Source: Rhizobacter koreensis (GTDB lineage Bacteria; Pseudomonadota; Gammaproteobacteria; Burkholderiales; Burkholderiaceae_C). From it: a stretch of DNA of 64,000 nucleotides. Every line of letters begins with the position of its first letter. Position 1 is the stretch's first letter. Of this stretch, positions 25,917-40,917 are shown one piece after another. Location: the NCBI RefSeq assembly GCF_013366375.1, contig NZ_JABWMJ010000004.1:310001-374000 (forward strand), in the 5' to 3' direction. The notes beneath the pieces were generated by a model. The model was not told where the DNA came from. It was given only the letters and a program-made list of their open reading frames with translations, and made no database searches. A program made the translations under genes and the position numbers.

Positions 25917-26711
25917 TCAGAGCGCGGCGTCGAGCGCGCCTTCGAGCGCCTGGCGCGTGGCCGGATCGTCGGTCAGCGGATCGAGCAGCGCCATGCGGCA
26001 GGCGTCGCCCAGCGCCACGCCCTGAGCGACCAGCGTAGCGGCCTGTACCAGCATGCGGGTCGACGCGCCCTCGTCGAGCCCCTGTCCCTGCAGTCGCCGG
26101 GTACGGATACCGAGCCCGACGATCTGCGCGGCGCGCTCCGGCGCGATGCCGGACTCGCGCGCGACGATGGCGGCCTCGGCTTCGCGTGCCGGGTAGTCGA
26201 ACGCGAGGGCGCAGAAGCGCTGCCGCGTCGACGTCTTCATCTCGCGCGCGTCGGCGCCCGGGTTGTACGAGACGGCGAGGGCGAAGTCCGGGTGCGCCCG
26301 CACGATCTCGTTGCGCGCGCCGACCGGCAGCATTCGGCGCGTGTCGGTCAGCGGGTGGATCACGACGGCGGTGTCGGCGCGCGCCTCGACGATCTCGTCG
26401 AGGTAGCAGATCGCGCCGTAGCGCGCCGCGAGCGTCAGCGGGCCGTCCTGCCAGCGCGTGCCGTCGGCGTCGAGCAGCCAGCGCCCGACGAGGTCGTTGG
26501 CGCTCAGGTCGTCGTTGCAGGCGACGGTGACGAGCGGGCGGCCGAGCCGCCAGGCCATGTACTCGACGAAGCGCGTCTTGCCGCAGCCGGTGGGGCCCTT
26601 CAGCAGCAGCGGCAGGCGACGCGCGTAGGCCGCTTCGAACAGCGCGACCTCGGCGCCGACCTCCTGGTAGAACGGCTCGGCGCCGACGCGCCAGGCGTCG
26701 AGCGGATGCAC
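25917..26711 (-). CDS. NorQ/CbbQ-type AAA+ ATPase (MoxR family)
   Basis: 264 residues from GTG 26711. Walker A is GPTGCGKTRF, Walker B is ICYLDEIVEA, and VSYNPG plus the sensor region place it with NorQ/CbbQ/GvpN ATPases. It lies one base after the amiE stop and two bases before the norD-like gene, so amiE, norQ-like and norD-like form a single operon. It presumably forms a ring that works with the VWA partner to activate a client protein. The client is not known; candidates are inferred only from the operon. Confidence 0.9.
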   Translation of the reverse strand: MHPLDAWRVGAEPFYQEVGAEVALFEAAYARRLPLLLKGPTGCGKTRFVEYMAWRLGRPLVTVACNDDLSANDLVGRWLLDADGTRWQDGPLTLAARYGAICYLDEIVEARADTAVVIHPLTDTRRMLPVGARNEIVRAHPDFALAVSYNPGADAREMKTSTRQRFCALAFDYPAREAEAAIVARESGIAPERAAQIVGLGIRTRRLQGQGLDEGASTRMLVQAATLVAQGVALGDACRMALLDPLTDDPATRQALEGALDAAL

Positions 26712-26712
26712 G

Positions 26713-27753
26713 TCAGCGATGCAGCGCGCTGCTCTGGTTCGGGATGCCGTCGATCGGCGCCTCGTCGGTGCCGACCGTCTGGCGCGTCATCGCCTCGACC
26801 TTGCGCCGCATCGCGTCGGGGTCGGCAATCCAGTCGCTGTAGAAGTCGTAGGGGCAGGCGGCGACGCCGCGGTCGCCCTCGCGCGAGTTGATGAGCCCGG
26901 TGTAGCCGCGGTGCAGCAGCTTGAAGAGGTGGTTCTCGCTCTGGCCATTGCGACGGAAGTCGCGGATCAGGCTCTTGGAGAGCGCCGCGTACTGGATGCC
27001 CATCTCCTCCTCGCCGCACTCGCCGAGCGTGCGACCGTCGAAGCCGATGATCGCCGAGTGGCCGAAGTACGAGTACACGCCGTCGAAGCCGGCGGCGTTG
27101 GCGACCGCGACGTAGACGTTGTTCGCGAATGCCATCGCCTTCGAGATCAGGACCTGCTGCTCCTTGGCGGGGTACATGTAGCCTTGGCAGCGGATGATGA
27201 GCTCGGCGCCCTTCATCGCGCAGTCGCGCCAGATCTCGGGGTAGTTGCCGTCGTCGCAGATGATCAGGCTGATCTTGAGGCCCTTGGGCCCCTCGCTGAC
27301 GTAGGTGCAGTTGCCCGGATACCAGCCCTCGATCGGCACCCACGGCATGATCTTGCGGTACTTCTGGACCACCTCGCCCTGATCGTTCATCAGGATCAGC
27401 GTGTTGTACGGCGCCTTTTCCGGGTGCTCTTCGTGGCGCTCGCCGGTCAGCGAAAAGACGCCCCAGACCTTCGCCTTGCGGCAGGCCGCGGCGAAGATCT
27501 CGGTCTCCTCGCCCGGCACGGTCGCGGCGGTGTCGTACATCTCGCGCGAGTCGTACATGATCCCGTGCGTGCTGTACTCGGGGAAGATCACCAGGTCCAT
27601 GCCGGGCAGGCCGACCTTCATGCCCTCGACCATGCGCGCGATCTGACGCGCGTTCTCCAGCACCTCGGCACGGCTGTGCAGGCGCGGCATCTTGTAGTTG
27701 ACGACGGCGACGCCGACCGTGTCCTTGCTGCTCGAGATGTCTCCGTGGTGCAT
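26713..27753 (-). CDS. amiE: Aliphatic amidase
   Basis: 346 residues, the length of the Pseudomonas/Rhodococcus aliphatic amidases. The nitrilase-superfamily residues are at their family positions: E59 (FPEYSTHG), K134 (YRKIMPW), E142 and C166 (LIICDDGNY). The enzyme hydrolyses short-chain amides such as acetamide to the acid and ammonia, and can transfer acyl groups to hydroxylamine. It is the first gene of an operon with the AAA+/VWA pair. A dyad shared with the urt/kinase region lies about 56 bases upstream of the start. Confidence 0.96.
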
Positions 27754-27780
27754 GGGCGTTCCCCTGGCTTTGGTCGGCCC

Positions 27781-27786
27781 ATTCTG
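27781..27786 (-). promoter_or_regulatory. Possible -10 element of the amiE promoter
   Basis: On the minus strand this reads CAGAAT, one of the few AT-leaning hexamers upstream of amiE, 22 bases downstream of the dyad at 27809-27824. No good -35 is present; the dyad edge sits where a -35 would be. This geometry suits a weak promoter that depends on an activator bound at the dyad. It is a visual call only. Confidence 0.3.
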
Positions 27787-27808
27787 CGAAGCGGGCGCGC
27801 GGCGGCCA

Positions 27809-27824
27809 TACGTCGTTTGACGTA
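27809..27824. promoter_or_regulatory. Putative operator TACGTC-N4-GACGTA upstream of amiE
   Basis: A perfect 6+6 dyad with spacer GTTT, located about 56 bases upstream of amiE and 82 bases upstream of the divergent RlmN-like gene. The same arms and spacer length occur at 36408-36423 between urtA and the transporter-kinase gene. The likely binding protein is the LuxR-type regulator at 39936-40868, whose family binds short dyads. This is inference from the shared site and gene functions. Confidence 0.65.
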
Positions 27825-27905
27825 CGCGCCGAGCGGAACCGCCGCAACGCGATCCCGAACGCGTTCCGCAGCCTGCGCCACAACCTGCCTACACTCGGCG
27901 CCCAC

Positions 27906-28952
27906 ATGCGAATTCACGACATCCGGCAACGCCTGCGCGCCCGCGGCGCGCTCGCCCTTCACGAGGAGCGCGTGCTGCGCTTCTGGGCCACGGCGCGGGC
28001 GCAGGCCGGCGGGCGGCGCCGTCGCGACGACTTCCTGCCGCGGGGCGTGCGCGACGATCTGCCGGCGCTCGAGGCCGAACTCGCCGGCCTTGCCTGGCTG
28101 CGCTCGACGCACCCGTCGGACGACGGCTCGGCACGTCTCCTGGTCGGCCTGGCCGACGGCCAGTCGGTCGAGGCGGTGCTGCTGCCGCGCGGGGGTCTGT
28201 GCGTGTCGAGCCAGGTCGGCTGCGCCGTCGGCTGCGTGTTCTGCATGACCGGTCGCGACGGCCTGCTGCGCCAGCTCGGCAGCGCGGAGATCGTGGCGCA
28301 GGTCGTGCTGGCGCGCGGCCTGCGCCCGGTGCGCAAGGTGGTCTTCATGGGCATGGGCGAGCCCGCGCACAACCTCGAGAACGTGCTCGAGGCGATCGAC
28401 CTGCTCGGAACCGCCGGCGGCATCGGTCACAAGGAGCTGGTCTTCTCGACGGTCGGCGACCGGCGCGTGTTCGAGCGCCTGGCGCAGGGGCGCGTGAAGC
28501 CGGCGCTCGCGATCTCGCTGCATTCGACCCGGCCCGAGCTGCGTAGGCGTCTGCTGCCGCGCGCTCCGGCGATCGAGCCCGCCGAGCTGGTCGAGATCGG
28601 CGAGCGCTACGCGCGCGCGACTGGCTATCCGATCCAGTACCAGTGGGCGCTGCTCGACGGCATCAACGACGACGCGACCGAGATCGACGGCATCGCCCGC
28701 CTGCTCGCCGGCAAGTACGCGCTGATGAACCTCATCCCGTACAACCGCGTCGACGGCCTGCCATACCGGCGGCCGCCGGTCGAGCGCGCGGTGGCGATGG
28801 CACGCGCGTTGCAGGCGCGCGGCGTGCTCACGCGATTGCGCCAGTCGGCGGGCCAGGACGTGGACGCCGGCTGCGGGCAGCTGCGCGCGCGGGCCGGCGC
28901 GGCGCGTGCGGTGCCGATCGCGTTCGCTCCGGTGAACCGTGTCGCGGCGTAG
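27906..28952 (+). CDS. RlmN-like radical SAM protein
   Basis: 348 residues. The radical SAM cluster motif is C106-x3-C110-x2-C113. Both extra cysteines used by RlmN/Cfr for methyl transfer are present: C99 in LCVSSQVGC and C323 in DAGCGQL. GMGEPAHN and the SLHSTRPELRRRLLP pattern also match. This fits the dual-specificity A2503 rRNA/tRNA methyltransferase family, but it is shorter than usual and sits among amide-utilisation genes rather than near ndk or pilF. It may be an accessory paralogue. It diverges from amiE across a shared 152-base region. Confidence 0.8.
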   Translation: MRIHDIRQRLRARGALALHEERVLRFWATARAQAGGRRRRDDFLPRGVRDDLPALEAELAGLAWLRSTHPSDDGSARLLVGLADGQSVEAVLLPRGGLCVSSQVGCAVGCVFCMTGRDGLLRQLGSAEIVAQVVLARGLRPVRKVVFMGMGEPAHNLENVLEAIDLLGTAGGIGHKELVFSTVGDRRVFERLAQGRVKPALAISLHSTRPELRRRLLPRAPAIEPAELVEIGERYARATGYPIQYQWALLDGINDDATEIDGIARLLAGKYALMNLIPYNRVDGLPYRRPPVERAVAMARALQARGVLTRLRQSAGQDVDAGCGQLRARAGAARAVPIAFAPVNRVAA

Positions 28953-29030
28953 TGCGACCGGCGACGGAACACGGGCCGGCCTTGCCCGGCTTCATTCAAC
29001 TCACGACTGCGCCACGGCGCGACTCACACC

Positions 29031-29606
29031 ATGTCACTCCGCCTCCACATCGTCATCTGCAGCACGCGGCCGGGCCGCGTCGGGCCCGCCGTCGCACGCT
29101 GGTTCCACGACTACGCGATGCGGCACGGCCGCTTCGACGCGCGGCTCGTCGACGTCGCCGACTTCGCGCTGCCGGTCTACGACGAGCCGCTGCACCCGCG
29201 CCTGCAGCGCTACGAGCACGAGCACACGAAGGCGTGGAGCGCCAGCGTCGCCGCGGCCGATGCCTACGTGTTCGTCACCCCGGAATACAACTACGGCCCG
29301 CCGCCTTCGTTCGTCAACGCGCTGAACTACGTCTACAACGAGTGGAACTACAAGGCCTGCGGGTTCGTCAGCTACGGCGGCGTCTCCGGGGGCATGCGCG
29401 CGGTGCAGCTCGAGAAGCAGCTCGTCACGACGCTCAAGATGATGCCGATGGTCGAGGGCGTCGCGGTGCCGATGGTCGCCAAGAGCATCGACGCCGCGGG
29501 CACGTTCACCTCGAACGAGCTGATCGACGCGTCGGCCCAGGCGATGCTCGACGAACTGCATCGCTGGGCGGCGGGCCTGAAGGCGATGCGCGACGCGAAC
29601 GCCTGA
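29031..29606 (+). CDS. NADPH-dependent FMN reductase family protein
   Basis: 191 residues of flavodoxin-like fold. CSTRPGRVGPAVARWF forms the FMN-phosphate loop and TPEYNYGPPPSFVNALNYVY the isoalloxazine-binding loop of the NAD(P)H-dependent FMN/quinone/azo reductases. The start ATG 29031 is the obvious one, although no strong Shine-Dalgarno is seen. It follows the RlmN-like gene by 78 bases on the same strand and is convergent with fmdB. The substrate is unknown. Confidence 0.88.
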   Translation: MSLRLHIVICSTRPGRVGPAVARWFHDYAMRHGRFDARLVDVADFALPVYDEPLHPRLQRYEHEHTKAWSASVAAADAYVFVTPEYNYGPPPSFVNALNYVYNEWNYKACGFVSYGGVSGGMRAVQLEKQLVTTLKMMPMVEGVAVPMVAKSIDAAGTFTSNELIDASAQAMLDELHRWAAGLKAMRDANA

Positions 29607-29615
29607 GCGTCGGCC

Positions 29616-29960
29616 CTAGTGGCTGATCATCCAAGGCCGCTTCGACGGGAACGCCTTGTTGCCGCTCGCGCCGGTGACCGTCGCGCCGCGCCGGGCGTTG
29701 GTCGAGCAGCAGCCGCAGCCCGACGGGTGGCGGTAGCGCGCCGACTCGCCCGAGCGTCGCGGCTCGTGCCGGGCGCGCTCGTTCACCGCGAGCGCGCTGC
29801 GCAAGGGGCCGTCGAGCAAGGCCAGGCGCGGCGCGGCGGCGAGCACGCGCGGCGCGGCGTTGCCGCACGCCGGGCAAGGCGCCGGCTGGTCGCGCGCGGC
29901 GACGCTGCGCAGCGCGTCGAAGCCGCCGCAGTCGGGGCATGCGTAGTCGTAGGTGGGCAT
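29616..29960 (-). CDS. fmdB: FmdB-type zinc-ribbon protein
   Basis: 114 residues. The N-terminal FmdB/CxxC zinc ribbon (MPTYDYACPDCGGFDAL then CPACG) is followed by an arginine-rich, low-complexity tail with a second cysteine cluster, GCGCC, near residue 82. FmdB was first described as a regulator in the formamidase cluster of Methylophilus. It is 16 bases downstream of fmdA on the same strand and ends the urt-fmd operon. Whether it binds DNA or only zinc is not settled. Confidence 0.88.
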   Translation of the reverse strand: MPTYDYACPDCGGFDALRSVAARDQPAPCPACGNAAPRVLAAAPRLALLDGPLRSALAVNERARHEPRRSGESARYRHPSGCGCCSTNARRGATVTGASGNKAFPSKRPWMISH

Positions 29961-29976
29961 TCCCGGCTCTCCGCGG

Positions 29977-31209
29977 TCACGCGAGGTCGGGCGACAGCGG
30001 CATGTCGACGCTGCCGTCGATCGCCTTCACCGGACCGCTGGCGCCCGGATTGATGTCGAAGTCGAAGATCTGCGTCGGCAGCCACAGCGTCGCGCACGCG
30101 TTCGGAACGTCGACGACCCCGCTGATGTGGCCCTGCACCGGCGCGGTGCCGAGGATCGAATAGGCCTGCGCGCCCGAGTAGCCGAACTTCTTCAGGTACT
30201 CGATCGCGTTGAGGCAGGCCTGCCGATAGGCGATGTGCACGTCGAGGTAGTGCTGCTTGCCCGACTCGTCGACCGAGATGCCTTCGAAGATCAGGTAGTC
30301 GTTGTAGGTCGGCGTGATCGGGCTCGGCTTGAAGATCGGGTTCTTGATGCCGTACTTGGCCATCCCGCCCTTGATCAGCCCGACCTTCATGTGCACCCAG
30401 CCGGCCATCTCGATCGCGCCGCAGAAGGTGATCTCGCCGTCGCCCTGGCTGAAGTGGAGGTCGCCTACCGAGAGCCCCGCGCCGTCGACATAGACCGGGA
30501 AGAAGATCTTGGAGCCGCGCGACAGGTCCTTGATGTCGCAGTTGCCGCCGTGCTCGCGCGGCGGCACCGTGCGCGCAGCCTCGGCCGCGACGCGGGCCTT
30601 CGCGTCGCCCGTGAGCTTGCCCAGGTGAGCCGTCGCGGCGAAGGGCGGGTTCGCGAGGCCGGGCACGCGCGAGGGGTTGGTCTCGATCAGCGCCATCTCG
30701 CGCTCGTTCCACATGTCGAGCATCGGCTTGTCGGGCAGGCAGCCGATCAGCCCGGGGTGGATGAGGCCGGCGAACTGCACGCCCGGCACGTGGCGCGAGC
30801 TCGTGAAGAGGCCGTGGAAGTCCCAGATCGACTTCTGCGCCTGCGGGAAGTGGTCGGTCAGGAAGCCGCCTCCGTTCTGCTTGCTGAAGAAGCCGTTGAA
30901 GCCCCACAGGCTGTCGGGCTTGGCGCCGATGTCGAGGAGGTCGACAACGAGCAGGTCGCCCGGCTCGGCGCCCTTGACGCCGACCGGTCCCGAGAGATAG
31001 TGCACCGTCGACAGGTCGATGTCGCGCACGTCGTCGGCACTGTCGTCGTTCTTGATGAAGCCGCCGGTCCAGTCGAAGGTCTCGAGGACGAAGTCGTCGC
31101 CCGGATTCACCCAGCACGCCATCGGGATGTCGGGGTGCCAGCGGTTGTGGATGTTCTCGTTCTCGGTCGGCGACTGCGTCAGGTCGACCTTGATCAGCGT
31201 GTCGGGCAT
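29977..31209 (-). CDS. fmdA: Formamidase
   Basis: 410 residues, matching the acetamidase/formamidase family (Methylophilus FmdA). It begins with MPDTLIKVDLTQSP and shows RWHPDIP, NPGDDF, FSQGDGEITFCGAIEM and GHISGVVDVPNA. The enzyme hydrolyses formamide to formate and ammonia. ATG 31209 has AGGAG at the right distance upstream. It lies 38 bases after urtE on the same strand, so uptake and hydrolysis are encoded together. This arrangement recalls the fmd cluster, where the linked transporter takes up short-chain amides and urea. Confidence 0.95.
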   Translation of the reverse strand: MPDTLIKVDLTQSPTENENIHNRWHPDIPMACWVNPGDDFVLETFDWTGGFIKNDDSADDVRDIDLSTVHYLSGPVGVKGAEPGDLLVVDLLDIGAKPDSLWGFNGFFSKQNGGGFLTDHFPQAQKSIWDFHGLFTSSRHVPGVQFAGLIHPGLIGCLPDKPMLDMWNEREMALIETNPSRVPGLANPPFAATAHLGKLTGDAKARVAAEAARTVPPREHGGNCDIKDLSRGSKIFFPVYVDGAGLSVGDLHFSQGDGEITFCGAIEMAGWVHMKVGLIKGGMAKYGIKNPIFKPSPITPTYNDYLIFEGISVDESGKQHYLDVHIAYRQACLNAIEYLKKFGYSGAQAYSILGTAPVQGHISGVVDVPNACATLWLPTQIFDFDINPGASGPVKAIDGSVDMPLSPDLA

Positions 31210-31247
31210 GGGGTGGCTCCTGGTTGGCGGTGGGCTGGGCAAAATGG

Positions 31248-31937
31248 TCAGACCGACAGGTACTGCCGGATGTGGTCGGCGTCGGTGTCGGCGCGCGTGG
31301 TCTCGTGCACGAAGCGGCCGCCCTCGATGACGAACAGGCGGTCCGCGACGTCCATCGCGAAACTCAGCACCTGTTCCGAAACGACGATCGTGATCTCGCG
31401 CAGGCGTCGGATCTCGTTGAGCGCCTTCCCGATCTCCTTGATGATCGACGGCTGGATGCCTTCGGTGGGCTCGTCGAGGAGCAGCACCTTGGGCTCGGTG
31501 ACGAGCGCGCGCGCGATCGCGAGCTGCTGCTGCTGGCCGCCGGAGAGGTTGCCGCCCTTTCTCGACTTCATGTCCCACAGCACCGGGAAGAGGGCATAGA
31601 TCTCGTCGGGGATGCGCCGGCTCTTCGAGTTCTCGAGACCGGTCTGGATGTTCTCCTCGACCGTCAGCGTCGGAAAGATCATGCGGCCCTGCGGCACGTA
31701 CGCGATCCCCTTGGCGACGCGGCGGAAGCTCTCGTCCTTCGAGACGTCGTGCCCGGCGACCTCGATGCTGCCGGCGCGTGCCGGCAGGATGCCCATCAGG
31801 CTCTTGAACAGCGTGGTCTTGCCCATGCCGTTGCGGCCCATGATCGCGACGGTCTCGTTCCTGCTGCTCTCGAACGAGATGCCGTGCAGCGCCTGGCTCT
31901 GGCCGTAGGCGACGAAGAGGTCGGTGACTTTCAGCAT
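31248..31937 (-). CDS. urtE: Urea/amide ABC transporter ATP-binding protein UrtE
   Basis: 229 residues of the LivF/UrtE type. Walker A is GRNGMGKTT, the signature is LSGGQQQQLAIARAL and Walker B is VLLLDEPTEGIQPS. The run MLKVTDLFVAYGQSQAL and the segment TDADHIRQYLSV at the end fit UrtE. It acts with UrtD as the heterodimeric ATPase of the importer. It starts 13 bases after urtD. Confidence 0.93.
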   Translation of the reverse strand: MLKVTDLFVAYGQSQALHGISFESSRNETVAIMGRNGMGKTTLFKSLMGILPARAGSIEVAGHDVSKDESFRRVAKGIAYVPQGRMIFPTLTVEENIQTGLENSKSRRIPDEIYALFPVLWDMKSRKGGNLSGGQQQQLAIARALVTEPKVLLLDEPTEGIQPSIIKEIGKALNEIRRLREITIVVSEQVLSFAMDVADRLFVIEGGRFVHETTRADTDADHIRQYLSV

Positions 31938-31950
31938 GTCCGGCTCCGTC

Positions 31951-32694
31951 TCAATGACCCAGATACACGTCGATCACGCGTTCGTCGGCCTGCACCTGCT
32001 CCATCGGGCCTTCGGCGAGGATCCGGCCCTGATGCATCACGGTCACCTTGTGGGCAATGCGCTTGACGAAGTCCATGTCGTGCTCGATCACGATCACCGC
32101 GCGGTTGCGGCAGATCCGTGTCAGCAGCTCGGCGGTGAGCTCGCGCTCGCGCGCGCTCATCCCGGCGATCGGCTCGTCGAGCAGCAGCAGCTCAGGCTCC
32201 TGCATCAGCAGCATCCCGATCTCGAGCCACTGCTTCTGGCCGTGGCTCAGCAGCCCGGCCTCGGTGTCGAGCTTGCCTTCGAGGTGGATCTCTTCGGCCA
32301 CGACCTCGACGCGGGCGCGCACCTCGTTCGTGCAGGTGAAGGCGAGGGCGCCCAGCACCGAGCGTCCCTTGGGAAACGAGACCTCGAGGTTCTGGAACAC
32401 CGAGAGGTTCTCGTAGATCGACGGGGTCTGGAACTTGCGGCCGATGCCGAGCCGCACGCGCCTGAACTCGGCCATGCGGGTCAGCTCCTGGTTCCTGAAC
32501 TTGATGCTGCCCGCGGCGGCCTTGGTGCGGCCGCAGATTAGGTCGAGCAGCGTCGTCTTGCCGGCGCCGTTGGGGCCGATGATCACGCGCAGCTCGTTCT
32601 TGTCGACGTAGAGCGTCAGCGCGTCGATGGCCTTGAAGCCGTCGAACGAGACCGTCAGGTCCTCGACGGCGAGCGTGTAGTCGGTGTTGCTCAT
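31951..32694 (-). CDS. urtD: Urea/amide ABC transporter ATP-binding protein UrtD
   Basis: 247 residues of the LivG/UrtD type, with Walker A GPNGAGKTTLLDLICG, the altered signature LSHGQKQWLEIGMLL typical of UrtD, and Walker B LLLLDEPIAGMS. It pairs with UrtE. It is separated by 12 bases from urtC and belongs to the same operon. Confidence 0.94.
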   Translation of the reverse strand: MSNTDYTLAVEDLTVSFDGFKAIDALTLYVDKNELRVIIGPNGAGKTTLLDLICGRTKAAAGSIKFRNQELTRMAEFRRVRLGIGRKFQTPSIYENLSVFQNLEVSFPKGRSVLGALAFTCTNEVRARVEVVAEEIHLEGKLDTEAGLLSHGQKQWLEIGMLLMQEPELLLLDEPIAGMSARERELTAELLTRICRNRAVIVIEHDMDFVKRIAHKVTVMHQGRILAEGPMEQVQADERVIDVYLGH

Positions 32695-32706
32695 CGAAGC
32701 CTCCGT

Positions 32707-33936
32707 TCAGGCGCGCTGGCCGTGGATGCCGGCCGTCAGGTCGGGGGCGTCGGGCGGCACCGCCTCGCCGCGCGGGCCGCCGCGCGCGGTGTCGCCCTTG
32801 GGCAGCGTGGTCCGCGCGACGCCGGTCGGGGTCGCCGTGACCACCGGAGGGCGGGCGGCGCGGCGCCGCTTCCACCACGGCACGACGTGGCTCTCCCACA
32901 GCCCGGCCAGGCCCATCGGGAAGGCCATGGTCACGCCGATGAACAGCGCGGCGACGAGGAATAGCCAGAGGTCGGGGAAACTCTCCGAGAAGTAGGTCTT
33001 GCCGGCGTTGACGAGCAGGGTGCCGTAGACGGCGCCGACCAGGCTCATGCGCCCGCCGACGGCGGCGAAGATCACCATCTCGATCGACGGCACGATGCCG
33101 ACGAAGCTCGGCGACATGAAGCCGACCTGCAGCGCGAAGAGCGCGCCGCCGATGCCCGAGAGCGCCGCCGCCAGGCAGAACGTGAAGATGCGGAAGTCGG
33201 CGACGTCGTAGCCGGAGAAGCGGACCCGGTCCTCCTTGTCGCGCATCGCCAGCAGCAGGGTGCCCGCCTTGCCGGTCTGGATCCAGCGGCACAGCAGGAT
33301 GCTGCCGATCAGCAGCGCGACGCAGACGTAGTAGAGGACGTACTTGGCCGAGTCGGTGCGGGTGTCCCAGCCGAGCAGCGTCTTCAGGTCGGTCATGCCG
33401 TTGACGCCGCCGGTGTAGCCCTGCTGGCCGATGATCAGCACCGTGAGGATCAGCGCCACCGCCTGGGTGATGATCGCGAAGTAGACGCCGCCGACGCGCC
33501 GCTTGAACATCGCGAAGCTGATGATCCAGGCCAGCAGCGTCGGCACCGCGATCACCGCGATCAGCGTGAACGGCAGGCTCTTGAACGGCACCCAGAACGC
33601 CGGCAGCTCGGTGAGCTGGTTCCAGTCCATGAAGTCGGGGATGCCCGGCGTCGACTGGATCTTCGTCGTGACCGGGTCCGAGGCCTCGAGCTTCAGGAAC
33701 ATCGCCATCGCGTAGCCGCCGAGCCCGAAGAAGACGCCCTGGCCAAGGCTCAGCACGCCGCCGTAGCCCCAGACCATGACGAGGCCGATCGCGACGAAGG
33801 CGTAGCAGAGGTACTTGCCGACCAGGTTGAGCCGGAAGATGTCGAGCGCGAGCGGCAGCACGACGGCGAGCAGCAGCGTCAGCAGCACGACGCTGGCAAG
33901 CTGGTAGCGCCTGACGAAGGATTGCAGCGAGTTCAT
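32707..33936 (-). CDS. urtC: Urea/amide ABC transporter permease UrtC
   Basis: 409 residues from ATG 33936 (MNSLQSFVRR); the frame extends to 33960 without support. It has about ten membrane helices of the LivM type, with VWGYGGVLSLGQGVFFGLGGY and RDKEDRVRFSGYDV. The cytoplasmic tail of about 50 residues (RRRAARPPVVTATP onward) is longer and of lower complexity than the core. Together with UrtB it forms the membrane channel. Confidence 0.93.
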   Translation of the reverse strand: MNSLQSFVRRYQLASVVLLTLLLAVVLPLALDIFRLNLVGKYLCYAFVAIGLVMVWGYGGVLSLGQGVFFGLGGYAMAMFLKLEASDPVTTKIQSTPGIPDFMDWNQLTELPAFWVPFKSLPFTLIAVIAVPTLLAWIISFAMFKRRVGGVYFAIITQAVALILTVLIIGQQGYTGGVNGMTDLKTLLGWDTRTDSAKYVLYYVCVALLIGSILLCRWIQTGKAGTLLLAMRDKEDRVRFSGYDVADFRIFTFCLAAALSGIGGALFALQVGFMSPSFVGIVPSIEMVIFAAVGGRMSLVGAVYGTLLVNAGKTYFSESFPDLWLFLVAALFIGVTMAFPMGLAGLWESHVVPWWKRRRAARPPVVTATPTGVARTTLPKGDTARGGPRGEAVPPDAPDLTAGIHGQRA

Positions 33937-33967
33937 CGGGGAAGGCTCCGGAAGCGGCACCGCGCGT

Positions 33968-34882
33968 TCAGCGCCGCACCTTGCTGGCGAACAGGCCCTG
34001 CGGCCGCAACATCAGGATCAGCACAATCAGCGACAGCGTCAGCACCTTGGCCATCGAGCCTGTCATGAAGAACTCGGACACCGACTGCGTCTGGGCGATG
34101 CCGAACGCCGACACCACGGTGCCGAGCAGGCTCGCGGCGCCCCCGAACGTGACCACCAGGAACGAGTCGACGATGTAGAGCGAGCCCGAGGTCGGCCCGG
34201 TCGAGCCGATCGTCGTGAACGCGGCGCCGGCGACGCCGGCGATGCCGCAGCCGATGGCGAAGGTGATGCGATCGGTCTTCTTGGTGTCGATGCCGGTCGC
34301 GTTGGCCATCGTGCGGTTGCTGACGGTGGCGCGCACCCGCAGGCCCCAGCGGCTCTTGCCGAGCGCGAGCAGCACGCCCAGCGTGACGAAGGTCGTCAGC
34401 GCAAGCACGAAGAGGCCGTTAATCGGGATGTCGAGGCCGGGCGCCGGTGCCCACGAGCCGAGCAGCCAGTCGGGCAGCGTCGGGCTGACCTCCTTGGGGC
34501 CGATGAAGGTGCGGAACGTCTGCTGCAGCGCCAGGCTGATGCCCCATGTCGCGAGCAGCGTGTCGAGCGGACGCTTGTACAGGTGCCGGATCAGGCCCCA
34601 CTCGACCAGCCAGCCGGCAGCGAACGCGAAGCCGAACGCCAGCACGATGGCCAGCGGAAAGTAGTACGGCATCAGGTTCGGCGCGTACGTCTGCGTCAGC
34701 TGCGAGCCCAGATAGATGGTGTAGGCGCCGAGCGTCATGAACTCGCCGTGCGCCATGTTGATGACGCCCATCTGCCCGAAGATGATCGCGAGGCCGAGCC
34801 CCATCAGCAGCAGCACCGCGAACAGGCTGAGGCCCGCGAAGCCCTGCATCAGGCCGATGTTCAGCATTTCGGAAACGGTCAT
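33968..34882 (-). CDS. urtB: Urea/amide ABC transporter permease UrtB
   Basis: 304 residues from ATG 34882 (MTVSEMLNIGLMQGF). LivH-type permease with about eight helices, GQMGVINMAHGEFMTLGAY, LLATWGISLALQQ and TGIDTKKTDRITFAIGCGIAG. Homologues often carry a periplasmic N-terminal domain in cyanobacteria and some proteobacteria; it is absent here. It is the first permease after urtA, separated by about 160 bases that hold no gene. Confidence 0.93.
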   Translation of the reverse strand: MTVSEMLNIGLMQGFAGLSLFAVLLLMGLGLAIIFGQMGVINMAHGEFMTLGAYTIYLGSQLTQTYAPNLMPYYFPLAIVLAFGFAFAAGWLVEWGLIRHLYKRPLDTLLATWGISLALQQTFRTFIGPKEVSPTLPDWLLGSWAPAPGLDIPINGLFVLALTTFVTLGVLLALGKSRWGLRVRATVSNRTMANATGIDTKKTDRITFAIGCGIAGVAGAAFTTIGSTGPTSGSLYIVDSFLVVTFGGAASLLGTVVSAFGIAQTQSVSEFFMTGSMAKVLTLSLIVLILMLRPQGLFASKVRR

Positions 34883-35040
34883 CGCACCACCATCACTAGT
34901 TCGCACGCCACGATCGATCGGGGCCGGTGATGCCGCGCGAAGCGCCGGCACCTTCAAGCAAACACCGCGGATCCGGCTTTGCCGGTCCGCCGGTGTTGCC
35001 CCCGGGGGCGGCCGTCAGGCCGTAGGGGGGGTCCAATAAC
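34883..35040 (-). other. urtA-urtB intercistronic spacer
   Basis: A 158-base non-coding gap inside the urt operon, read on the minus strand between urtA and urtB. Binding-protein genes commonly have such spacers, where hairpins stabilise the highly expressed first cistron. Here the region has CCCCC / GGGGG runs (34999-35032) that could fold, but no clean stem with a T-run is seen. Confidence 0.4.
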
Positions 35041-36291
35041 TCACTGGTAGCCCTTGGGGAACGGGTCCGGCTTGATCAGCTGCGGCGACTCGGACACCAC
35101 CTTGAACGTGCCGTCGGGCATGCCCATCGCAATGCGCGACTTGCTCCACAGGTGGTGGTTGGCGTCGAGCTTCACGTAGCCCTCGGGCGCGGTGGTGAGC
35201 TCGATGTTGGGCGAGGCGGCGACCACCTTGTCGACGTCGAAGCTCTTCGCGCGCTCGACCGCGGCCTTCCACAGCCACGGACCGAGGTAGCCGGCCTGCG
35301 TCACGTCGCCGATCACCGACTTGGGCCCGTACTTGGTCTTGAAGGCACTGACGAACTTCTTGTTGTTCTCGTTGTCGAGGGTCTGAAAGTACTTCATCGA
35401 CGAGAAGAAGCCGGCGAAGTTCTCGCCGCCGATGCCGGTCATCTCGTCCTCGGTGACCGAGAGGGTCACCAGCACCTGCTTGTCGCCCGTGATGCCGGCC
35501 GCCTTCATCGCCTTGTAGAACGCGACGTTGGAGCCGCCGACCACCGCGGCGTAGATCACGTCGGGCTTTTGCACCTTGATCTTGTTCATCAGGGAGCCGA
35601 AGTTGGTGCTGCCGAGCGGGTAGTACTCCTCGCCGACGACCTTGCCCTTCTGGAAGTTCTCGATGTGCTTGCGCGCGATCTTCATCGAGGTGCGCGGCCA
35701 GATGTAGTCCGAGCCGATCAGGAAGAAGGTCTTGGCCTTCTTCTCGTTCTTGGCCCAGTCGAGGCTGTAGAGGATCTGCTGGGTCGCTTCCTGGCCGGTG
35801 TAGATGACGTTCTTCGACTGCTCGAGCCCTTCGTAGAAGGTCGGGTAGTAGAGCAGCCCGTTTTCCTTCTCGAACACCGGCAGCACCGCCTTGCGCGAGG
35901 CCGAGGTCCAGCAGCCGAACACCGCGGCGCAGCGGTCGTTGATCAGCAGCTTCTTCGACTTCTCGGCGAACGTCGGCCAGTCGGACGCGCCGTCCTCCTT
36001 GATGACCTTTATCTTGCGGCCGAGGATGCCGCCCATCGCGTTGATCTGGTCGATCGCGAGCTGCTCGGCCTGGATCGATCCGGTCTCGGAGATCGCCATC
36101 GTCCCGGTCGACGAATGCAGCTGGCCGACGGTCACTTCGGTGTCGGTCACGGCGAGCTTGGTCGTGTTCACGGCGGCGCTGGCCTGGGCGAAGCTGAGCC
36201 CGCCGGCTCCGAGCATCGGCAGGGCGGCGGCCCCCTGCAGCAGGCGGCGGCGGCCGGAATCGGGTGTGTTCGGGTCGTGGTCGCGGGACAT
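35041..36291 (-). CDS. urtA: Urea/short-chain amide substrate-binding protein UrtA
   Basis: 416 residues from ATG 36291, preceded by GGAGG. The N-terminus has a twin-arginine-like signal (GRRRLLQGAAALPMLG) ending near SFAQA, so export through Tat is likely. The mature domain matches UrtA/FmdD: VGQLHSSTGTMAISE, EDGASDWPTFAEKSKKLL, FGCWTSASRKAVLPVFE and NGLLYYPTFYEGLEQSKN. It captures the substrate in the periplasm. It is the first gene of urtABCDE-fmdAB. Given the adjacent formamidase and the absence of urease, amides may be the main ligand. Confidence 0.94.
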   Translation of the reverse strand: MSRDHDPNTPDSGRRRLLQGAAALPMLGAGGLSFAQASAAVNTTKLAVTDTEVTVGQLHSSTGTMAISETGSIQAEQLAIDQINAMGGILGRKIKVIKEDGASDWPTFAEKSKKLLINDRCAAVFGCWTSASRKAVLPVFEKENGLLYYPTFYEGLEQSKNVIYTGQEATQQILYSLDWAKNEKKAKTFFLIGSDYIWPRTSMKIARKHIENFQKGKVVGEEYYPLGSTNFGSLMNKIKVQKPDVIYAAVVGGSNVAFYKAMKAAGITGDKQVLVTLSVTEDEMTGIGGENFAGFFSSMKYFQTLDNENNKKFVSAFKTKYGPKSVIGDVTQAGYLGPWLWKAAVERAKSFDVDKVVAASPNIELTTAPEGYVKLDANHHLWSKSRIAMGMPDGTFKVVSESPQLIKPDPFPKGYQ

Positions 36292-36407
36292 GGATCGGTC
36301 CTCCGGTCGGATGGCTGTGTGGAATCGGCGGGTCCGGGCGGTGCCACTCGAGGGAGCGGGTGACCGTCGGATGGCGTCATGTTCCAAGCCGCGCCTCGAA
36401 CGGCGAA

Positions 36408-36423
36408 TACGTCAATTGACGTA
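36408..36423. promoter_or_regulatory. Putative operator TACGTC-N4-GACGTA between urtA and the kinase gene
   Basis: The core of an 18-base perfect palindrome (ATACGTCAATTGACGTAT, 36407-36424), about 117 bases upstream of urtA and 120 bases upstream of the kinase start. It has the same half-sites and spacer length as the dyad upstream of amiE. Reading towards urtA, a weak -10-like GGAACAT begins 22 bases after the dyad, the same distance as the -10-like element at amiE. This makes a shared activator site plausible. Confidence 0.7.
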
Positions 36424-36516
36424 TCGCGTGCACATCGCTGCGCAGGCACGCTCCCGATCCCGGTGCACGACACGGGCGGCGGTGGGGCACCCGGCCCCGG
36501 GACGGCACGGCGCAGC

Positions 36517-36532
36517 TGGAGCAGTTCTTGCT
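36517..36532 (+). promoter_or_regulatory. Sigma-54-like promoter element before the kinase gene
   Basis: TGGAGCAGTTCTTGCT has GG and GC separated by ten bases and the TTGCT -12 box. It matches the TGGCAC-N5-TTGCW consensus at the invariant positions but not in the -24 CAC. Transcription from it would begin almost at the predicted GTG start, which argues against it unless the true start is further in. Nitrogen genes often use sigma-54, so it is recorded with low confidence. Confidence 0.25.
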
Positions 36533-36543
36533 TTTTCGGCGCC

Positions 36544-39500
36544 GTGGCTGCCGTTCCCCAGACCCAGAAGATCTTCCGCATCCGCCGCGAGTACAACTCG
36601 TGGGTCGCCGACCAGTCCATGGAGGACTACGCGCTGCGCTACACGCCGCGCGCTTTCCGCAAGTGGAGCGAGTTCCGCGTCGCCAACACCGCGTTCGGCG
36701 CGACCTCGTTCCTGGCGCTCGAGGCGATCGGCGGTGCCATCGCCCTGAGCTACGGCTACTCGAACGCGCTGTGGGCGATCCTGGTGGTCGGGCTCGTCAC
36801 GTTCCTGACCGCGCTGCCGATCAGCTATTACGCCGCACGCTACGGGGTCGACATGGACCTGCTGACGCGCGGCGCGGGCTTCGGTTACGTGGGCTCGACG
36901 GTCACCTCGCTGATCTACGCGAGCTTCACGTTCATCTTCTTCGCGCTCGAGGCCGCCATCCTCGCGCTTGCGCTGCAGCTCTACTTCGGCTGGCCGCTCG
37001 GCGTGTGCTATCTCGTGTCGTCGCTCGTCGTCGTGCCGCTCGTCATGCACGGCATCACGCTCATCTCGCGGCTCCAGCTGTGGACCCAGCCGATCTGGAT
37101 CGTGCTCTTCGTGCTGCCGTACGTCGCCGTGCTCGCCAAGAAGCCGACGCTCTTCGGCGAATTCACGTCGCTCGTCGGCAGCGTCTCGGGCACCAGCGCA
37201 TTCGACCCGGTGATGTGCGCTGCGGCGACCGCGATCGCGTTCTCGCTGGTGGTGCAGGTCGGCGAGCAGGTCGACTACCTGCGCTTCCTGCCCGAGAAGA
37301 CGCCGGCCAACCGGGTGCGCTGGTGGAGCGCGGTGCTGGTGGCCGGGCCGGGCTGGATCGTGCCCGGCATGCTGAAGATGATGGGCGGCGCGTTCCTCGC
37401 CTTCGTCGCGCTGCAACACGAGATCTCGCCGGAGAACGCGGTCGAGCCGACGCAGATGTATCTCGCCGGCTTCGGCTACGTCTTCAGCTCGCCGGAGTGG
37501 GTGCTCGGCGCGACCGCCGTCTTCGTCGTCGTCTCGCAGATCAAGATCAACGTGACCAACGCGTACGCCGGCTCGCTCGCCTGGTCCAACTTCTTCGCCC
37601 GCCTGACCCACTCGCATCCCGGGCGCGTGGTCTGGCTCGTCTTCAACGTGCTGATCGCCGTGCTGCTGATGACCCTCGGCGTGTTCGAGGCGCTCGAGCG
37701 CGTGCTCGGGCTCTACGGCAACGTCGCGATCGCCTGGGTCGGCGCGCTGGTCGCCGACCTCGTGATCAACAAGCCGCTCGGCTGGAGCCCGCGGCACGTC
37801 GAGTTCAAGCGCGCCCACCTCTACGACATCAACCCGGTGGGGCTGGGCGCGATGCTGATCGCGGCCGCGCTCGCGATGCTCGCCTACGCTGGCGTGATGG
37901 GTCGGACCGCGGAAGCCTTCGCGCCATTCATCGCGCTCTTCACCTCGCTCGCGCTCGCGCCCGCGATCGCGTGGCTCACGCGCGGCCGCTACTACCAGGC
38001 GCGCGCCGACCTGACGGCCTGGCGGCCCGGCGAGGCGGTCACCTGCACCGTCTGCGACAACGCGTTCGAGTCCGAGGACATGGCGCATTGCCCGGCCTAC
38101 GACGCGCCGATCTGCTCGCTGTGCTGCACCCTGGAATCGCGCTGTCACGACCGCTGCAAGTCGGGCTCGCGCAGCGCCGAGCAGGTGCGGGCTGCGCTGG
38201 TCGCGGTGCTGCCGGCCGCGCTGAGCCGCCGCATCAACTTCCGCGCCGCTCACTACCTGGTCGTCGCGCTGGCCCTGGTCGCGCTGGTGGCGGTGATCCT
38301 CGGCATCGTCTACGAGCAGCAGGCTGCAGCCCACCAGGCGGGCCAGGCGCTGCTGCGCGGCCCGCTGGTCACCGCGTTCGCGCTGCTGTCGCTGGTGGCG
38401 GCGGTGGGCGCCTGGTGGATCGTGCTCGGCAGCGAGAGCCGGCACATGGCCGAGGACGAGTCCAACCGGCAAAACGAGCTGCTGGTGCGCGAGATCGAGG
38501 CGCACCGGCGCACCGACACCGCGCTGCAGGCTGCCAAGGATCTGGCCGAGGCCGCCAACCAGGCCAAGACGCGCTATGTCGCCGGCATGACGCACGAGCT
38601 GCGCACGCCGCTCAACAGCATCCTCGGCTACGCGCAGATCCTGCTGAAGGACGAGCACCTGCAGGGCGAGCGCCGGGCGGCGGTCGACACCATTCACCAC
38701 AGTGGCGAGCACATGCACGGGCTGATCGACGGCCTGCTCGACCTCGCCCGCATCGAGGCCGGCAAGCTGCGCCTCGACATCGCTCCGCTGCCGATGGGCG
38801 AGTTCCTCGACGACGTGGTGCGTATGGTGGCGCCGCAGGCCGCCGCCAAGGGGCTGGCGTTCGAGCTGCGCACGCTCGGACGGGTGCCACGCTACGTGCG
38901 CGCCGACGGCCGGCGCCTGCGCCAGATCCTGATCAACCTGCTCGGCAACGCGGTGCGCTTCACCGATCGCGGCAGCGTGACGCTGCTGCTCGACCACTCC
39001 GGACAGGTGGCGCGCTTCAGCGTCATCGACACCGGGATCGGCATCGATGCGCAGGACCTCGAGCGCATCTTCCTGCCGTTCGAGCGCGGCAGCGCCGGTC
39101 GGCGCACCGGCGAGCCCGGAACCGGGCTCGGTCTGACCATTACTCACCTGCTGACGCAGCTGATGGGCGGCGAGCTGACGGTGTCGAGCACGCCGGGCGC
39201 CGGCAGCACGTTCAGTGCGAGGCTCTACCTCAGCGAGACGACCGAGCCCGGCGCGACGCGCACACCGCGGCATCGGCCGATCAGCGGCTACATCGGCGCG
39301 CGGCGCAGCCTGCTTGTGGTCGACGACCACCCGACGCAGCGCCAGATGCTGGCCGGCATGCTGCTGCCGCTGGGGTTCCGGGTGCGCGAGGCGGCGAGCG
39401 GCCGCGAGTGCATCGACAGCGTGGCGGAAAACCCGCCCGACGCGGTGCTGCTCGACATCTCGATGGACGACATGGACGGCTGGGAAACCGCGCGCCGGCT

Positions 39501-39939
39501 GCGCCGCGCCGGCCACGCGGCGATGCCGATCATCATGGTGTCGGCCGACGCGTTCGAGAACCAGGCCGACAAGCTTGCCGACGCCGGCTGCCAAGGCTTC
39601 GTCGACAAGCCGGTGATCGAGTCGGAGCTGCTCGCGGTGCTGCAGCGCGAGCTCGAGCTCGAGTGGGTCGCCGAGCTCGCGATGCCGGGCTGGCAGCCGG
39701 CGCTCCCGGCCCCGACGCCGACCGCGATCCCCGAGGACCACGCGCGCGCGCTGCTGCGCCTGGCGCGCCTCGGCCACCAGCAGGGACTGCAGCGCGCGCT
39801 CGACGTGCTGCTGCTCGAGCACCCCGCGTGCGCGTCCGAGGTCGGGATGCTTCGGGAGCTGGTCGACCGCTTCGCCTGGCACGAGCTGATCGAGCGCTGC
39901 GCGGGTGCGCTCGAAGCGGCGGAGGAGGGCTCGCCATGA
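36544..39939 (+). CDS. NCS1 permease-histidine kinase-receiver fusion (hybrid sensor)
   Basis: About 1131 residues. Residues ~1-490 form a complete nucleobase:cation symporter-1 (NCS1) permease-like domain of about 12 helices (FRVANTAFGATSFLALEAIGG). Residues 501-538 form a Cys-rich module with eight cysteines (C501 to C538, CxxC then CxxCC). Two membrane helices (~560-625) and a coiled coil lead to HisKA with H684 in THELRTPLN, HATPase_c (NLLGNAVRF, DTGIGI, GTGLGLTI) and a receiver with D971. The end (~1060-1131) may be an HPt-like helical remnant. It resembles CrbS-type transporter-kinases, but those use an SSS/SLC5 domain. GTG 36544 is the best start. The stop overlaps the response regulator gene. 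A role in sensing amides or related nitrogen compounds is inferred. Confidence 0.88.
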   Translation: MAAVPQTQKIFRIRREYNSWVADQSMEDYALRYTPRAFRKWSEFRVANTAFGATSFLALEAIGGAIALSYGYSNALWAILVVGLVTFLTALPISYYAARYGVDMDLLTRGAGFGYVGSTVTSLIYASFTFIFFALEAAILALALQLYFGWPLGVCYLVSSLVVVPLVMHGITLISRLQLWTQPIWIVLFVLPYVAVLAKKPTLFGEFTSLVGSVSGTSAFDPVMCAAATAIAFSLVVQVGEQVDYLRFLPEKTPANRVRWWSAVLVAGPGWIVPGMLKMMGGAFLAFVALQHEISPENAVEPTQMYLAGFGYVFSSPEWVLGATAVFVVVSQIKINVTNAYAGSLAWSNFFARLTHSHPGRVVWLVFNVLIAVLLMTLGVFEALERVLGLYGNVAIAWVGALVADLVINKPLGWSPRHVEFKRAHLYDINPVGLGAMLIAAALAMLAYAGVMGRTAEAFAPFIALFTSLALAPAIAWLTRGRYYQARADLTAWRPGEAVTCTVCDNAFESEDMAHCPAYDAPICSLCCTLESRCHDRCKSGSRSAEQVRAALVAVLPAALSRRINFRAAHYLVVALALVALVAVILGIVYEQQAAAHQAGQALLRGPLVTAFALLSLVAAVGAWWIVLGSESRHMAEDESNRQNELLVREIEAHRRTDTALQAAKDLAEAANQAKTRYVAGMTHELRTPLNSILGYAQILLKDEHLQGERRAAVDTIHHSGEHMHGLIDGLLDLARIEAGKLRLDIAPLPMGEFLDDVVRMVAPQAAAKGLAFELRTLGRVPRYVRADGRRLRQILINLLGNAVRFTDRGSVTLLLDHSGQVARFSVIDTGIGIDAQDLERIFLPFERGSAGRRTGEPGTGLGLTITHLLTQLMGGELTVSSTPGAGSTFSARLYLSETTEPGATRTPRHRPISGYIGARRSLLVVDDHPTQRQMLAGMLLPLGFRVREAASGRECIDSVAENPPDAVLLDISMDDMDGWETARRLRRAGHAAMPIIMVSADAFENQADKLADAGCQGFVDKPVIESELLAVLQRELELEWVAELAMPGWQPALPAPTPTAIPEDHARALLRLARLGHQQGLQRALDVLLLEHPACASEVGMLRELVDRFAWHELIERCAGALEAAEEGSP

Positions 39940-40868
39940 GCGCGTCGGGCAGCTCCCGCGCGCTCTCGCCCGAGCGCGCCGGCGCCGAGGGTGGTGCGGT
40001 GAGCGGCAGCGGTCACGTGGTGCTGGTCGTCGACGATGCGCCACGCTCGCTCGGTTCGCTGTGCATCGAGCTCGAGAACGAGGGCTACACGGTGCTGGTC
40101 GCGGCGAGCGGCGAGGCCGCGCTCGAGCGGCTCGACCTGGTCACGCCCGACGCGATCCTGCTCGACGCCATGATGCCGGGGCTCGACGGCTTCGCGACCT
40201 GCGCCCGCATCAAGCGCCACGCGGCCTGGGCCCACATTCCAGTGATCTTCATGACGGGCCTCTCCGACACCGACGACGTGCTGAGGGGTTTCGCGGCCGG
40301 CGGCGTCGACTACGTGGTCAAGCCGGTGCGGGCGCCGGAGGTGGTGGCGCGGCTCGCGACCCACGTCCGCAACGCGCGCACCGCCCGCATGGCGCGCGAG
40401 GCGATCGAGGTCGGCGGCCACGGCGTCGTCATGGTCGACGGCCAGCGCCGCGTGGCCTGGCATTCGCCGCAGGCGCAGCGCTGGCTGGTCGAGTTCTTCG
40501 AGGACGAGCCGGACGGCGCCGGCGTCGAATGGCTGTATTCGTCCGGCGCGGCGCCGCCGGGCCGCACGCGCGGTGCGCGCACGCTCGTCGCGCGCCGTCT
40601 CGGCAGCGTCGGGCTCGGCGAGGACATGTGGCTGCTCGGCGTGCAGCGCGCCGACGTGCAGCTCTCGTCGCGCGTGCTCGAGGCGTCGCTGACACCGCGC
40701 GAGACCGAGGTGCTGTCGTGGATCGCCAAGGGCAAGACCAACCGCGACGTCGCCGAGATCCTGGGCATGAGCCCGCGCACCGTGAACAAGCACCTCGAGC
40801 GGGTGTTCGAGAAGCTCGGCGTCGAAACGCGGGCGGCGGCCGCGGCGCTCGCCAGCCGCGAGGGCTGA
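39936..40868 (+). CDS. LuxR-family response regulator
   Basis: 310 residues. A receiver domain (VVLVVDDAPRSLG, phospho-acceptor D in ILLDAMMPGLDG, K in VVKPVRAP) is followed by a central region of ~100 residues with no motif, and a LuxR/NarL helix-turn-helix (LTPRETEVLSWIAKGKTNRDVAEILGMSPRTVNKHLERVFEKLG, about residues 252-296). ATG 39936 overlaps the kinase stop as ATGA and has GGAGGAGGG upstream. It is therefore the cognate partner of the NCS1-kinase. It is the best candidate to bind the two TACGTC-N4-GACGTA dyads controlling amiE and urtA. Confidence 0.92.
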   Translation: MSASGSSRALSPERAGAEGGAVSGSGHVVLVVDDAPRSLGSLCIELENEGYTVLVAASGEAALERLDLVTPDAILLDAMMPGLDGFATCARIKRHAAWAHIPVIFMTGLSDTDDVLRGFAAGGVDYVVKPVRAPEVVARLATHVRNARTARMAREAIEVGGHGVVMVDGQRRVAWHSPQAQRWLVEFFEDEPDGAGVEWLYSSGAAPPGRTRGARTLVARRLGSVGLGEDMWLLGVQRADVQLSSRVLEASLTPRETEVLSWIAKGKTNRDVAEILGMSPRTVNKHLERVFEKLGVETRAAAAALASREG

Positions 40869-40917
40869 TGCGCCGCGACCTGCGACGCGCGCGCGCGCCC
40901 GCGCCCGGGCGAGGTCG

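Follow-up and report, generated by a model that had tools for sequence, protein, structure and literature searches.

Does a single regulatory site join amide hydrolysis to amide and urea uptake in Rhizobacter koreensis, and which protein would bind it? The question is raised by a stretch of 64,000 nt (NZ_JABWMJ010000004.1, positions 310,001–374,000), called the window here and used for all coordinates, in which an inverted repeat, TACGTC-N4-GACGTA (the dyad), stands upstream of the amidase gene amiE and again between urtA, encoding a urea/amide-type binding protein, and the gene of a hybrid histidine kinase that is paired with a LuxR-type response regulator. The two 6+4+6 dyads of the original prediction, with identical arms and a 4-nt spacer, were found at 27809–27824 and 36408–36423, the second indeed within a perfect 18-bp palindrome (36407–36424). 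The dyad is very probably an activator site for the kinase-paired LuxR-type regulator, which would control urtABCDE-fmdAB, amiE and, probably, the kinase genes. The genes urtABCDE-fmdA-fmdB lie head to tail on one strand, so that the entire operon could be under the dyad at 36408, and by gene layout the pair of dyads would bring amidase, formamidase and uptake together, the union that had been proposed.

Exact copies of the dyad are confined to these two promoters. The window holds two, versus none in each of 100 dinucleotide-preserving shuffles, and the whole genome (5.58 Mb, 41 contigs) has the exact dyad at two places, both of them the window sites, where 0.045 per genome would be expected under a first-order Markov model of the window; the exact dyad is thus not strewn at random through the genome. 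At up to two mismatches, the window has two places (1.18 expected) and the genome 40, versus 109 for the pattern read backward, and degenerate matches are not enriched. The three one-mismatch places in the genome have spacers GCCC, CGGA and CGCC, none of the RWWY form described below. Degenerate dyads as extra targets in R. koreensis were rejected, since the 40 places are fewer than in the control; the signal is carried by exact, well-placed sites only.

Conservation was examined in 80 loci with relatives of the regulator, taken from named genomes as the best 80 of the matches listed. DNA upstream of the kinase gene was readable in 73 of the 80 (335 to 1500 bp each), and within 1.5 kb upstream of that gene a dyad with at most one mismatch is present in 42/73 loci and with at most two in 50/73. 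The kinase coding sequence, taken as control, gave 0/73 at up to two mismatches, and single-base shuffles gave 2/1460 at up to one mismatch and 64/1460 at up to two. The conservation expected at amiE, urtA and kinase orthologues in related genomes was therefore borne out, both at these kinase loci and at 14 of 39 amiE genes (see below). In a midpoint-rooted tree of the regulators (79 rows, after removal of two short ones from 81), one well-supported branch of 53 rows has the dyad in 43 of 47 testable cases, and the other side has it in 7 of 25. Two Polaromonas loci (L025, L029) have amiE between urtA and the kinase gene, with the dyad between urtA and amiE, and in five further loci (L027, L031, L032, L038, L039) the dyad precedes fmdA; the site thus goes with the target genes and is not tied to the kinase gene alone.

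A family-wide set of 200 genomes, searched with the pattern TACGTYN4RACGTA, yielded 68 places in 51 genomes. Regulators of at least 56% identity have an exact-pattern dyad 3.4–4.2 kb upstream in 37 of 43 cases, and those below 56% in 0 of 78, where the cut was chosen after the list had been seen and the count was limited to exact matches no more than 5.5 kb away. Among the six misses, G158 (two mismatches) and G198 (one mismatch) have a dyad at the right place, and G191 has a one-mismatch dyad farther off. Exact sites are therefore not scattered across the family, as random occurrence would have them, but stand beside close regulator orthologues. By position, the regulator locus accounts for 37 of the 68 places and the DNA upstream of amiE for 14 (counting the window site); with six more at genes of the system, the total is 57. 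These six, assigned by inspection, comprise three kinase/urtA sites and one each at amiE, a urtA paralogue and fmdB. A close fmdA (at least 83%) occurs in 44 genomes; in 43 of them an exact dyad stands at genes of the system, G191 being the exception. A close regulator is listed for 41 of the 44, and in the other three (G180, G210 and G291) fragments of the kinase or regulator lie next to the dyad; the regulator search scored first candidates only, and the lack of a row says little about true absence. Where a genome has both regulator types, the exact dyad is found only by the close orthologue (for example G325). Across an order-wide set of 150 genomes, with regulator matches at E ≤1e-40, the pattern occurs at 28 places in 24 genomes and the regulator in 22 genomes; 11 places lie less than 5 kb from a regulator gene, and a twelfth is the window amiE site, 12 kb away. 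Exact TACGTCN4GACGTA accounts for 11 places, nine of them at such loci and the exceptions being G036:C47 and G084:C19.

The spacer, although left free in the searches, is also conserved. It is RWWY at 57 of 57 system places versus 2 of 11 others in the family set (Fisher 1.1e-9), a comparison that is not fully independent for amiE because RWWY was read off sites that included family amiE sites; no family-set regulator-locus place was among the defining sites, though some species recur between the sets (L038 coincides in place with a G160 site). The two off-system exceptions stand before a porin gene (L136, Porin_4) and in the open reading frame (ORF) of a putative cbb3 oxidase subunit. The consensus site reads TACGTY-RWWY-RACGTATT.

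Flanks were made less redundant before the distance to a -10 element was assessed (31 of 45 kept for urtA/fmdA, 18 of 20 for amiE and 47 of 55 on the kinase side). The pattern NAnnnT starts 24 nt past the dyad in 22/31 urtA/fmdA flanks (1.1 expected), 11/18 amiE flanks (0.5 expected) and 20/47 kinase-side flanks (1.7 expected), with 5, 3 and 6 occurrences, respectively, at the next best offset. The corresponding binomial values (2e-25, 5e-13 and 3e-17) are uncorrected for a pattern and offset chosen after a first look; 15 of the 18 amiE flanks lay outside the data used to choose the register pattern. The inverted repeat thus stands at a fixed distance from the -10 in three promoter groups; with the first base of the hexamer set at -12, the dyad would span -51 to -36. 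A -35-like TTSG or TGGG abuts the dyad in 16 of 22 urtA/fmdA promoters with the -10 in register and in 0 of 9 others; it is found in 0 of 47 kinase-side flanks, and the window kinase side likewise has none. The -10-like signals on both sides of shared dyads suggest that many of these drive both directions. In the window, weak -10-like hexamers had been placed 22 bases downstream of each dyad, towards amiE and urtA. Both hexamers exist and the amiE gap is 22 nt; the urtA gap, however, is 23 nt from the 16-mer dyad (22 nt from the 18-bp palindrome), in keeping with the conserved register of 24, and a third hexamer in register faces the kinase gene (Table 1).

The amiE genes provide a second test of the site. 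Among 39 others in the family set, 38 of them with readable upstream DNA (600 bp read), the 14 positive cases have a dyad with at most two mismatches less than 150 bp upstream; the amiE of G210 is cut by a contig end, and its apparent 5' part on another contig (L141) has a dyad. Genes with no same-strand fmdB, fmdA or urtE upstream have the dyad in 12 of 15 cases, versus 2 of 23 (G325, G294) for those with one (Fisher 1.2e-5). The amiE genes with neither dyad nor upstream system gene are those of G279 and G343, for which no regulator is listed, and of G127, which has the downstream half-site only. Dyads also precede amiE genes that lie far from the regulator, nearly 3 Mb away in G312 and on another contig in G220 and G167, and a dyad precedes amiE in Pseudothauera (L223).

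Turning to the proteins, the kinase contains the Pfam domains HisKA, HATPase_c and receiver. Its membrane part matched no Pfam family at E up to 1 (residues 1–581 of the window protein, and L053), and a PDB sequence search with this part returned no match. A model of the kinase based on 23 sequences (mean predicted local distance difference test score 76, predicted template modelling score 0.79) gave Mhp1 and CodB as top Foldseek matches (E about 1e-8), and structural comparison returned CodB at Z 26.6 (root-mean-square deviation (rmsd) 3.7, 396 aligned) and Mhp1 at Z 23.5 (rmsd 4.0, 430 aligned). The first non-NCS1 entry scored Z 19.2, and CHT1, which we take to be the best SLC5 entry, scored Z 18.9 (rmsd 4.0, 405 aligned). 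By this model, the membrane half of the kinase probably has an NCS1 fold, ranked above SLC5; as it belongs to no Pfam family, we call it NCS1-fold and do not file it as an NCS1 transporter. Between this part and the kinase domains, eight cysteines (residues 501–538) are invariant in 23 kinase sequences and are a possible metal or redox module; they lie in the region where SLC5/STAC kinases have STAC, for which no Pfam match was obtained here. In the regulator, D77, T107 and K129, which are presumably its phosphoacceptor residues, are invariant in 23 sequences.

We propose that short-chain amides and/or urea would be sensed through the NCS1-fold hybrid kinase, which would thereby become active and phosphorylate the LuxR-type regulator (39936–40868), a dimer of which would bind the dyad. 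Positioned just upstream of a weak or missing -35, the bound regulator would recruit RNA polymerase. The dyad at 36408 would drive urtABCDE-fmdAB, and probably also the divergent kinase and regulator genes, and the dyad at 27809 would drive amiE, which is split from the operon by two unrelated genes. From co-occurrence and the likeness to CrbR, the regulator is the most likely binder of the dyad; we likewise infer its phosphorylation, the ligand, activation over repression and the transcription starts.

The nearest known relative of this arrangement is CrbS/CrbR, described in published passages as a hybrid kinase fused to a transporter-like membrane domain, with a LuxR-type regulator, that controls uptake and the first enzyme, in that case for acetate (PMC5715377). 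CrbS/CrbR works in the manner proposed here: CrbR needs an imperfect inverted repeat, the ACTU motif, which lies at -52 to -36 and adjoins the promoter, and a 6-4-6 layout can be read in its published examples, TACGACTAAAGTCTAAA among them (PMC5715377). The systems differ in one base per arm (TACGTC here, TACGAC-like there), in the sensor, which is SLC5 plus STAC in CrbS (PMC5715377) and here has NCS1 as its best fold with a Cys cluster in the linker, and in the targets, which here are amide and urea genes. Because the half-site, the probable sensor fold and the targets differ, we file the present system as a variant of the CrbS/CrbR type and not as a member of the SLC5/STAC family. RpuS/RpuR, which responds to pyruvate, also combines a transporter-fused kinase with a LuxR-type regulator and a conserved motif at the transporter promoter, but in the passages available the motif is an imperfect direct repeat and the sensor is SLC5/STAC (PMC9100948). 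Phosphorylated StyR is described as activating from the high-affinity STY2 site at about -40, a response-regulator site near the position seen here, although StyS/StyR is styrene-responsive and has other targets (PMC2442086). AmiC/AmiR shares amide-responsive control of amiE, but as summarized in the source passage it acts by antitermination through an RNA-binding regulator, not at a promoter dyad (PMC13209695). No report of this two-component system or of the motif turned up among open-licence papers, judged by their titles and the opening of their abstracts.

The same kind of gene set has been studied in Methylophilus methylotrophus, whose fmdCABDEF operon is reported to be inducible by formamide and urea and repressed by high ammonia (PMC10781810). 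The passages of that source mention no two-component system; the putative positive regulator that they name lies within the cluster and would be FmdB by gene order (PMC10781810). In three Methylophilus genomes, a two-mismatch dyad, its downstream arm perfect, is located ~85 bp upstream of the gene preceding fmdA, which had no Pfam match and is presumed to be fmdC by the published order, and TAAGCT or TAATCT starts 24 nt past this dyad (counted by eye); the exact dyad pattern was not found before fmdC in the Methylophilus stretches. Upstream of urtC there is a second weak dyad (two to three mismatches), with TAGAAT at the same distance past it, and the kinase gene has a dyad with one mismatch to TACGTC/GACGTA (two in L058). 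Each of these stretches (11–14 kb) contains at least one other match at up to three mismatches, one of them inside the urtA coding sequence, and chance dyads thus occur at this threshold. Two weak dyads lie 77 bp apart before the presumed fmdC in L224 (reverse strand, 2655 and 2732), and also in L225 and L226, a spacing that could give room for a second dimer.

Several observations count against the dyad being an activator site for this regulator. No dyad at up to two mismatches was found upstream of the kinase gene in 23 of the 73 loci, nor in L028, L033, L036 and L041, four of the 47 testable members of the dyad clade, where the L033 stretch ends short. In the family set, the G304 regulator has no dyad at the usual place (none in the stretch read), and the regulators of G314 and G223 (56–57% identity) have no exact dyad. 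The window amiE hexamer CAGAAT falls one base short of the conserved register of 24, and ammonia repression of the published fmd operon is unexplained by the dyad. The recognition-helix core SPRTVNKHLE is common to regulators on the tree side that mostly lacks the dyad (7/25); some of these have exact dyads (L054, L064) and most have none, and with this shared core binding specificity is not fully explained. Finally, the regulator adjoins the dyad and targets in nearly all cases, a co-occurrence that would fit another conserved binder as well.

That other binder, a different conserved protein encoded elsewhere, such as a general nitrogen regulator, would leave the two-component system linked to the dyad by operon history. 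Dyad, close regulator and close fmdA co-occur too tightly for their distribution to separate this reading from ours, and the shared helix core also favors it, yet we consider it unlikely: the amiE genes of G279, G343 and G320, genomes with no close fmdA and no close regulator listed among the first candidates, have no dyad at up to two mismatches; genomes with both regulator types have the exact dyad only by the close orthologue; and the site shares its inverted-repeat shape and position with the CrbR site (PMC5715377). Decidedly less probable is a repressor operator beside the promoter. The register test leaves the sign of regulation unfixed and urtA-side promoters keep a weak -35 (TTSG or TGGG) at the dyad, but this -35 departs widely from consensus and is missing on the kinase side, the Methylophilus operon is reportedly inducible (PMC10781810), and CrbR and StyR activate from sites at this position, according to the passages concerned (PMC5715377, PMC2442086).

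The reported repression of fmd by high ammonia (PMC10781810) would suit sigma-54/NtrC nitrogen promoters with the dyad as an incidental feature; the best -24/-12 candidate between dyad and gene has at least three mismatches in each of 40 stretches examined, which does not improve on shuffled sequence, and this explanation is very improbable. Chance repeats in a GC-rich genome have a negligible probability: degenerate matches are common, yet fewer than in the backward control, the two exact matches of the genome are both here, and conservation of position, spacer and -10 register refutes this explanation. An RNA element was also considered and rejected, with no Rfam match at gathering scores in 26500–41000 and with the dyad upstream of the -10, where it would be outside the transcript.

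Dyads were also seen beside genes other than those discussed above. Dyad-like sites lie near CobW/UreG-type GTPase genes beside the regulator in two loci (L079:11594 and L042:3130), and a further one (L081:11571) was listed with this group. Elsewhere, the dyad precedes genes for urtA paralogues of 36–41% identity (L138:4001, L146:4001, L208:1501), which suggests a second transporter in the regulon. At L136:4001 an exact dyad with an RWWY spacer stands ~95 bp before the Porin_4 gene and recalls the amide porin FmdC. The off-system dyad in G220:C62, close to the end of a contig, is a repeat resembling a hairpin, and that in G165 lies inside an ORF that putatively encodes a cbb3 oxidase subunit. 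Upstream regions of distant kinase–regulator pairs were collected from 20 loci (L228–L247), and in 19 of them the kinase start could be used. The 15 commonest exact palindromes listed for these regions do not include TACGTC, and a different palindrome, TTGGTG-N6-CACCAA, occurs in 7 of the 19.

By annotation, the enzyme and uptake genes of the window (Table 1) are an ordinary amide/urea nitrogen-use set. The start of the regulator gene overlaps the stop of the kinase gene by 4 bases. An rlmN-like radical SAM gene and a flavin mononucleotide (FMN)-reductase-like (flavin-reductase-like) gene, on the plus strand at 27906–29606, part amiE from fmdB; amiE follows closely after fmdB in many relatives, whereas the window amiE is separated and has its own dyad.

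Table 1. Genes and promoter elements of the amide/urea locus (window coordinates; ABC, ATP-binding cassette).
Feature	Position	Strand	Details
amiE, aliphatic amidase	26713..27753	-	NCBIfam equivalog NF009802, 713 bits, above the cutoff of 427
-10-like hexamer CAGAAT toward amiE	27781..27786	-	starts 23 nt past dyad; 22-nt gap
Dyad TACGTC-GTTT-GACGTA	27809..27824	.	upstream of amiE; forward-strand letters TACGTCGTTTGACGTA; read in amiE direction TACGTCAAACGACGTA
fmdB-like zinc-ribbon protein	29619..29960	-	TIGR02605, PF09723
fmdA, formamidase	29977..31209	-	equivalog NF045496, 767.5 bits, above the cutoff of 500; PF03069
urtE, ATPase	31248..31937	-	ORF; name by operon order
urtD, ATPase	31951..32694	-	ORF; name by operon order
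urtC, permease	32707..33936	-	ORF; name by operon order
urtB, permease	33968..34882	-	ORF; name by operon order
urtA, urea/amide-type ABC binding protein	35041..36291	-	TIGR03407, 503.5 bits; cutoff 492.75
-10-like hexamer GAACAT toward urtA	36379..36384	-	starts 24 nt past dyad, in register
Weak -35-like hexamer TTCGCC for urtA	36402..36407	-	abuts dyad; 17 nt before -10-like hexamer
Dyad TACGTC-AATT-GACGTA	36408..36423	.	between urtA and kinase gene; letters TACGTCAATTGACGTA
-10-like hexamer CACGCT toward kinase	36447..36452	+	third hexamer; starts 24 nt past dyad, in register
Hybrid histidine kinase	36544..39939	+	probable NCS1-fold membrane part, Cys cluster, HisKA, HATPase_c, receiver; GTG start chosen by annotator
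Response regulator	39936..40868	+	receiver and LuxR/GerE DNA-binding domain; PF00072, PF00196

A broader reading, possible though somewhat less likely than not, is that an NCS1-fold transceptor kinase, in a class apart from SLC5/STAC and possibly gated by metal or redox through its Cys cluster, would read short-chain amides or urea at the membrane, with one bidirectional element controlling uptake, hydrolysis and the synthesis of the system itself across beta-, gamma- and alphaproteobacteria; this would then be the fmd inducer system. Induction of formamidase and transporter by amides and urea is published, with no sensor named in the literature passages surveyed, and a conserved operator with a defined register, tied to one kinase–regulator pair, makes the sensor question directly testable in laboratory strains. 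The few sensor kinases known to resemble transporters would gain a probable NCS1-type branch, and the dyad serves to mark amide/urea regulons across whole genomes and may offer a promoter inducible by amides.

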